50,274 bases of DNA from Clostridiales bacterium (lineage in GTDB: Bacteria > Bacillota > Clostridia > Lachnospirales > Lachnospiraceae). Positions within the stretch are counted from its first letter, which is position 1. Each line of letters begins with the position of its first letter. Below, piece after piece: positions 12,725 to 36,724 of the stretch. The position numbers and the translations under genes are program-made. The notes below the pieces were generated by a model. The model searched no databases. It was not told the DNA's origin and was given only the letters and a program-made list of their open reading frames with translations. The DNA lies in NCBI GenBank assembly GCA_029227635.1, contig JAQYAH010000080.1, positions 1-50,274 of the forward strand, written 5' to 3'.

Positions 12725-12749
12725 TATCAGTTAGAATATGCCGATCCAA

Positions 12750-12785
12750 CGGGGTCCGCTCTTAAAGGGCCGGACCTCGTTTTTT
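12750..12785 (+). terminator. Rho-independent terminator of gap
   Basis: Arms 12750-12758 and 12771-12779 pair over nine positions (one G-T), followed by six T to 12785. Confidence 0.85.
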
Positions 12786-12793
12786 GTAACAAC

Positions 12794-12875
12794 GACGAGC
12801 CAAGGTCCGGGCATGGCATGGACTTTGGCGACCGCATACAATCTCAAAATGTGCCATAGGCACTTTTGGTGATTG
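12794..12875 (+). repeat. structured intergenic repeat, copy 1 (before pgk)
   Basis: It begins GACGAGCCAAGG and contains two hairpins. Hairpin A (12800-12828) pairs CCAAGGTCCG with its partner ending CTTTGG. Hairpin B (12839-12875) runs from CAATC to GATTG with an inner GTGCC/GGCAC stem. The linker ACCGCATACAATC is shared with copy 3. It starts eight bases after the gap terminator T-run and ends 16 bases before the pgk start. Substitutions relative to copies 2 and 3 mostly keep pairing. Confidence 0.85.
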
Positions 12876-16845: not shown

Positions 16846-16882
16846 GAAACACTCTTTACGTTCCTAAAGAGTGTTTCTTTTT
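16846..16882 (+). terminator. Rho-independent terminator of secG
   Basis: A perfect 13-bp stem (16846-16858 with 16865-16877), a six-base loop and five T. Confidence 0.93.
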
Positions 16883-16890
16883 GTATAAGT

Positions 16891-16974
16891 GACGAGCCAA
16901 GGTCAGGGCAGAACCTAGACTTTGGCAACCACATACAATCTCAGAACGTGCCTGTCGGGCACTTCTGACGATTG
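16891..16974 (+). repeat. structured intergenic repeat, copy 2 (before smpB)
   Basis: Same two-hairpin layout as copies 1 and 3: CCAAGGTCAGG pairs with CCTAGACTTTGG allowing one mismatch, and CAATC-TCAGAA-GTGCC pairs with GGCAC-TTCTGA-GATTG. It starts eight bases after the secG terminator T-run. A second copy of AGTGACGAGCCAA occurs exactly 90 bases later (16978-16990), as if a second unit began and was cut short. Confidence 0.85.
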
Positions 16975-17005
16975 CGTAGTGACGAGCCAAAGGCATTAGG
17001 ATAGT

Positions 17006-36599: not shown

Positions 36600-36633
36600 A
36601 AGATAAGCAGAAGTTTTTTTGCTTATCTTTTTT
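36600..36633 (+). terminator. terminator of the small membrane protein gene
   Basis: AGATAAGC (36601-36608) pairs with GCTTATCT (36621-36628), extended one base on each side, followed by T to 36633. Confidence 0.85.
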
Positions 36634-36640
36634 GTTTAGC

Positions 36641-36724
36641 GACGAGCCAAGGTCCGGGCAGAATCCGGACTTTGGCGACCGCATACAATCTCAGAACGTG
36701 CCCATCGGGCACTTCTGATGATTG
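36641..36724 (+). repeat. structured intergenic repeat, copy 3 (before polA)
   Basis: This is the best-paired copy. Hairpin A (36647-36675) is an 11-bp stem of CCAAGGTCCGG with CCGGACTTTGG and a seven-base loop. Hairpin B (36687-36724) stacks CAATC/GATTG, TCAGAA/TTCTGA and GTGCCC/GGGCAC around loop ATC, with one unpaired base on each side. It starts seven bases after the preceding terminator T-run. The following stretch to polA (36725-36862) holds little except a weak promoter candidate. Confidence 0.88.

Follow-up and report, generated by a model that had tools for sequence, protein, structure and literature searches.

Terminator-associated ~90-nt structured repeats of Lachnospiraceae as probable non-autonomous mobile elements

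Three copies and the sites behind which they lie

The window analysed here is a stretch of 50,274 nucleotides from a Clostridiales bacterium of the Lachnospiraceae (assembly GCA_029227635.1, contig JAQYAH010000080.1). Within it lie three copies of a short intergenic repeat, upstream of pgk, smpB and polA; the gene upstream of the first copy is gap. A sequence-only reading had reported three copies at these places, ahead of these same genes and each after a terminator, and our data bear this out. The repeat family (D1) comprises exactly three copies in the window; each contains two strong hairpins (folding, z -5.1 to -8.0); and a covariance model (R2) built from other genera only recovers all three, with E values from 1.5e-10 to 8e-8, and nothing else at E<=1. 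Each copy starts at the end of an intrinsic terminator's T-run, and hairpin and T-run are genuine in all three cases. The features are as follows, with the evidence for each in brackets.

12748..12785, + strand: intrinsic terminator after gap, targeted by copy 1 (sequence; fold -21.7 kcal/mol, z -5.5)
12786..12874, + strand: element copy 1, type A, upstream of pgk (repeat family, fold, R2)
16846..16882, + strand: intrinsic terminator targeted by copy 2 (fold -16.6 kcal/mol, z -6.2)
16883..16973, + strand: element copy 2, type A, upstream of smpB (repeat family, fold, R2)
16976..16993, + strand: remnant of another copy, left end only, in tandem immediately after copy 2, GTAGTGACGAGCCAAAGG (sequence)
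36600..36633, + strand: intrinsic terminator targeted by copy 3 (fold -13.6 kcal/mol, z -5.2)
36634..36723, + strand: element copy 3, type A, upstream of polA (repeat family, fold, R2)
36646..36676, + strand: helix P2 of copy 3, GCCAA..TTGGC, with GACGA before and GACC after as conserved internal loop (fold, covariation)
36687..36723, + strand: helix P3 of copy 3, terminal hairpin AATC..T..GATT with one bulged T (fold, covariation)

Over 84 nt copy 3 is identical to two further copies elsewhere in its own genome. The tandem remnant behind copy 2 overlaps the smpB leader.

The extent of the unit is defined by base counts at the junctions: the TT just before the element is nearly invariant, the bases after its final GATT are close to random, and no T-run is conserved after the last helix. 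The element is ~90 nt long, with its first base directly after the T-run (G-Y-R-N-N-R-G-C) and GATT as its last bases. On the strength of these counts the G seen to follow every T-run, although present as reported, is not separate from the element but is its first base. For the same reason the gap of 7-8 bases proposed to separate terminator and element proves to be the element's own 5' arm of helix P1; copy 3 therefore runs from 36634 to 36723.

Three helices make up the fold. P1 pairs GYR..GC with GC..YRC (in subtype B, CGCG-a-GC with GC-CGCG); P2 (GCCAA..TTGGC) is flanked by a conserved internal loop, NACGA/GACY, and is frequently capped by CUUG; P3 is a terminal hairpin in which a single bulged T sets off the last four pairs and whose 3' end is GATT or AGTT. 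The two ends of the element, GTATAGGCGACG.. and ..TTCCGGTGATT, are not inverted repeats of one another. Two subtypes can be distinguished: type A, found in the genome studied here, Mediterraneibacter and Mordavella, and type B, found in Coprococcus catus, Ruminococcus faecis, Blautia and others. Type B copies in C. catus and in one further genome, G162, carry an extra hairpin domain of ~53 nt between P2 and the 3' arm of P1 (L189, L237, L249, L284, L296; L112).

Both subtypes show covariation. Standard pairs occupy 93.0% of cells in 25 type A sequences and 93.6% in 26 type B sequences, and compensatory changes affect 12 pairs in type A (shuffled mean 4.4) and 20 pairs in type B (shuffled mean 8.9), values reached by none of 500 shuffles in either subtype. 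The signal is lost when the pairing partner is slid, a control that leans toward the proposed structures because these were drawn from single alignment members. G.T and A.C pairs, counted as a guide to the folding strand, stand at 26 against 9 in type A and at 27 against 26 in type B and do not single out one strand. Model R1, made from decayed copies and keeping only 8 pairs, was replaced by R2 and R3.

Copy number, landing and empty sites

The genome from which the window comes (1.75 Mb, 87% complete) contains about 40 copies at E<=1e-3, ranging from 100% identical to badly decayed; the decayed copies inspected also sit mostly right behind terminators. Mediterraneibacter glycyrrhizinilyticus has at least 40 copies with 94-100% identity to the consensus, a recent burst; R. 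torques and genome G288 contain many older, diverged copies. With a type B DNA query at least 45 of the 299 genomes of the family gave matches at E<=1e-6, a floor, given that the best three candidates per genome were scored. Across 295 genomes of the order R2 found matches in 18, five of these outside the bacterial family of the genome studied here, and in those inspected P1 and P2 are kept while P3 changes freely. The element family is thus widespread in Lachnospiraceae and reaches neighbouring families. The sequence-only reading had named two outcomes that would tell against it – the lack of further copies, or copies bearing no relation to terminators and showing no conserved pairing; what emerged were many further copies, behind terminators and with conserved pairing.

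Plasmid records searched with both subtypes yielded none, and a pattern scan of IMG/VR gave 62 exact matches, none with the architecture of the element: these are chance matches. Type B matches to 'phage' records were rejected as phage-borne copies, since the five records inspected are bacterial chromosome contigs with housekeeping genes. The GenBank 'Bacteriophage sp.' records in question (MT835472, MT835784, MT835501, MT835682 and MT835488; L417-L421) resemble chromosome contigs and hold bacterial housekeeping genes.

A hairpin with a T-rich tail lies directly upstream of 20 of the 24 full-length copies in the own genome, as against 2.1% of background window positions. Among the four exceptions one (L008) lies behind the 3' end of a tRNA followed by T's, and another (L027) behind what appears by eye to be a T-box terminator with a long loop. 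A hairpin stands just upstream of 71/78 type A and 40/48 type B copies. That the copies share the orientation of the next gene, as had been suggested, is true of the window but does not generalise: in the named genomes the downstream gene is co-oriented for 52/92 copies, compared with 82/91 for the upstream gene. Orientation of the element follows the terminator and the upstream gene, not the gene downstream. Copies also occur directly behind T-box terminators, in L197 266-600 (by Rfam) as well as in L027. Tandem copies are found as two pairs in the own genome and further afield in L102, L115, L276, L292, L294 and L295; they show that the element's own P3 plus TT can act as a target.

Sites lacking the element are seen in relatives. 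In M. glycyrrhizinilyticus the element separates thrS from the T-box terminator (Rfam) ahead of it, and in Faecalimonas and R. intestinipullorum the same terminator and thrS are present with no element between them; at ispG, too, R. intestinipullorum is without the element. The most telling case is hydF of M. glycyrrhizinilyticus, where the element lies inside the coding sequence, antisense and in frame. The product is HydF by both Pfam and NCBIfam, with its tetramerisation domain split into two stretches, and the insertion point falls among codons that are uninterrupted in eight aligned relatives. Read on the antisense strand, these codons form a hairpin that runs into T's, AGCTCCG..CGGAGCTCTTTTT, with CCGGAT..ATCCGGATATCTTTT in one relative. 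Species-level comparisons are the basis for the exact breakpoints and for the choice of gain over loss, and the T-run at the junction masks short target site duplications.

The HydF concerned (L251 6294-7733) is an [FeFe]-hydrogenase maturase with ~30-40 extra residues that come from the element's antisense strand, the frame being kept.

Three options had been offered for the constant position behind terminators: an RNA module that works with the terminator, a read-through control, and a mobile element that targets terminators. The first two find no support in our data. A cis-acting module cooperating with the terminator, whether through backup termination, 3'-end protection or control of read-through, could draw on the constant position directly behind terminators, on the strong folds with their covariation and on the copies in T-box leaders. 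Yet no T-run or other downstream sequence is conserved, the orientation of the next gene is ignored, near-identical bursts stand beside many decayed copies, and the element is absent from orthologous terminators of relatives. Nor does terminator function appear to be what is recognised, for the landing signal is hairpin plus T-run: copies lie within hydF, antisense, behind the element's own 3' hairpin and behind a tRNA 3' end. The hydF copy speaks directly against a joint role with a gene's terminator, because such a role would not place the element there. We consider a cis-acting role very improbable.

The third option, by contrast, is well supported by empty orthologous sites, the hydF insertion, tandem stacking, copy bursts and a random right flank. 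We conclude with considerable confidence that the repeats belong to a family of structured, non-autonomous mobile elements, ~90 nt long, which occur in Lachnospiraceae and related bacteria and insert in one orientation directly 3' of a hairpin with a T-rich tail. Usually the target is an intrinsic terminator, which may be that of a T-box. Our data establish the copy number and its lineage-specific bursts, a fold supported by compensatory changes, sites without the element, context-independent landing, tandem landing and the decay of old copies. Most copies are probably neutral, since little harm comes from landing immediately after a terminator. As a counterpoint, purifying selection against other insertions could sharpen the position behind terminators; distance and polarity, both fixed, together with the hydF insertion lead us to favour targeting over selection alone.

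How the element may move

As the agent of movement we envisage an enzyme acting in trans that would recognise a folded single strand, either ssDNA or RNA, probably by way of P1-P2 with its NACGA/GACY loop and of P3 with its bulged T; this candidate protein or RNP would then attach the element by its 5' end to the T-tail of the target hairpin. The element's own 3' end, a P3 hairpin ending in GATT or AGTT, resembles such a target, which would account for the tandem copies.

Searches for the enzyme, covering Y1, maturase and reverse transcriptase genes, found neither a cognate enzyme nor an autonomous relative among carriers, a result to be read with the fact that draft genomes may lose multicopy genes. 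Y1_Tnp, sought in 36 genomes, is absent from the own genome, from G190, G255 and G288, and from the burst genome G323, which has at least 40 copies at 94-100% identity. Neither the own genome nor ten further carriers have the group II maturase domain (GIIM; 29 genomes), and RVT_1 (8 genomes) is missing from the own genome and G162. Since drafts lose multicopy genes and short contigs, such absences carry much weight only in G255 and G288, which are single contigs. Long internal inserts of the kind expected in an autonomous form were also sought, with only the extra 53-nt C. catus hairpin and truncated copies to be seen. RAYT or IS200 proteins (36 genomes), group II maturases (29 genomes) and reverse transcriptases (8 genomes) were each rejected as a universal partner. 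One reverse transcriptase is worthy of record: in M. glycyrrhizinilyticus L410 1333-2532 encodes a retron St85-like enzyme with a C-terminal part resembling a 4Fe-4S ferredoxin.

Of the possible mechanisms for this mobility, one is transposition of single-stranded DNA by a Y1/HUH transposase of IS200/IS605 or RAYT type, which would act on bulged-T hairpins close to the ends of an element that has no terminal inverted repeats, and would insert it 3' of a T-rich motif. Each end of the element has a hairpin close by, the bulged T of P3 is constant, TT precedes the left end and GATT/AGTT stands at the right end, and tandem copies run head to tail; Y1 genes, moreover, are present in many carriers. 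Set against this are the carriers without Y1_Tnp, single-contig and burst genomes among them, and the character of the RAYT-like Y1 genes in other Lachnospiraceae (L321, L323, L332, L333), which have REP-like flanking hairpins of their own, GGGGACGT..ACGTCCCC, unlike the element. Among 61 Y1, maturase and reverse transcriptase loci there was one clear copy close by and one weak match. The clear copy lies about 200 nt from an IS200 locus of Ruminococcus faecis; in L402 1300-2300 of that species an IS200-type element is found about 60 nt downstream of an intact type B copy, with ends unlike those of the repeat. We regard the Y1/HUH route as possible, but hold it only tentatively.

A second route runs through RNA. 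Here the transcribed element would be copied, in the manner of a SINE, by a reverse transcriptase or group IIC intron RNP into sites consisting of hairpin and T-run. For the group IIC intron of E. rectale the target is a DNA stem, a spacer and a T-rich IBS1, followed by insertion (PMC10190682), a geometry that the element's target shares; the element inserts where transcripts end, and the conserved fold, the frequent CUUG loop and the tandem G-A beside P2 are features typical of RNA. The carriers lacking GIIM maturase or RVT_1 weigh against it, as does the fact that the reverse transcriptases of other carriers are of different kinds; we think it unlikely. Compared with this group IIC-like target logic the HUH reading is at least as possible, but its enzyme is absent in complete genomes. 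More speculative, and in our judgement rather unlikely, is that the element is a SINE-like RNA parasite of ~90 nt, copied into the genome at transcript 3' ends by a machinery that reads hairpin and T-run and is unrelated to both REP/RAYT and group II intron systems.

Place among known elements

Comparison with known systems places the element beside several while identifying it with none. Group IIC introns, such as the E. rectale intron with MarathonRT, likewise insert in one orientation behind a DNA stem-loop and T-rich stretch, occur in the same bacterial family and depend on single-strand structure of the target (PMC10190682). The element differs in its size (~90 nt), in having neither ribozyme domains (domain V and others) nor a reading frame, in matching nothing in Rfam and in its presence in genomes without any GIIM maturase. 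The resemblance is a likeness in working and not membership, for the element lacks a ribozyme and maturase is missing from many of its carriers. REP/BIME sequences moved by RAYT (Y1) proteins are also short, multicopy, non-autonomous and intergenic, with bulged imperfect hairpins and sometimes in tandem. Unlike these, the element lands strictly behind hairpin and T-run and has a three-helix core with a conserved internal loop; the RAYT genes of these bacteria carry other hairpins, and several carriers of the element have no Y1 genes. MITEs of DDE transposons and BOX/RUP-type repeats share small size, multiple copies, lack of coding capacity, intergenic location and apparent movement in trans, but the element has no terminal inverted repeats and its target is structural in place of a short sequence. 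Like integron attC sites it folds as a single strand, with extrahelical bases, and usually follows a co-oriented gene; in contrast to them, no attC core motifs are seen in the element, there are no cassette arrays, and insertions are scattered over the chromosome.

No named family had been recognised in the sequence-only reading, and Rfam 15, searched at gathering and relaxed thresholds, likewise holds no match. The literature that we searched, a partial coverage and hence weak evidence, contains no description of the sequence, of terminator-targeting repeats or of SINE-like bacterial elements. In kind the element belongs with the small mobile repeats, and it targets terminators: it is real, widespread and without description in Rfam or the literature searched.

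By this reading another kind of mobile element, besides group IIC introns, would use the hairpin and T-tail of terminators for landing, one for which there is no Rfam family and which is abundant in major human gut bacteria. A copy behind a T-box terminator joins a tRNA-regulated leader upon read-through; with copies in T-box leaders and inside HydF, the element can therefore alter both regulation and proteins. The species with fresh bursts offer a direct way toward the enzyme that mobilises it.
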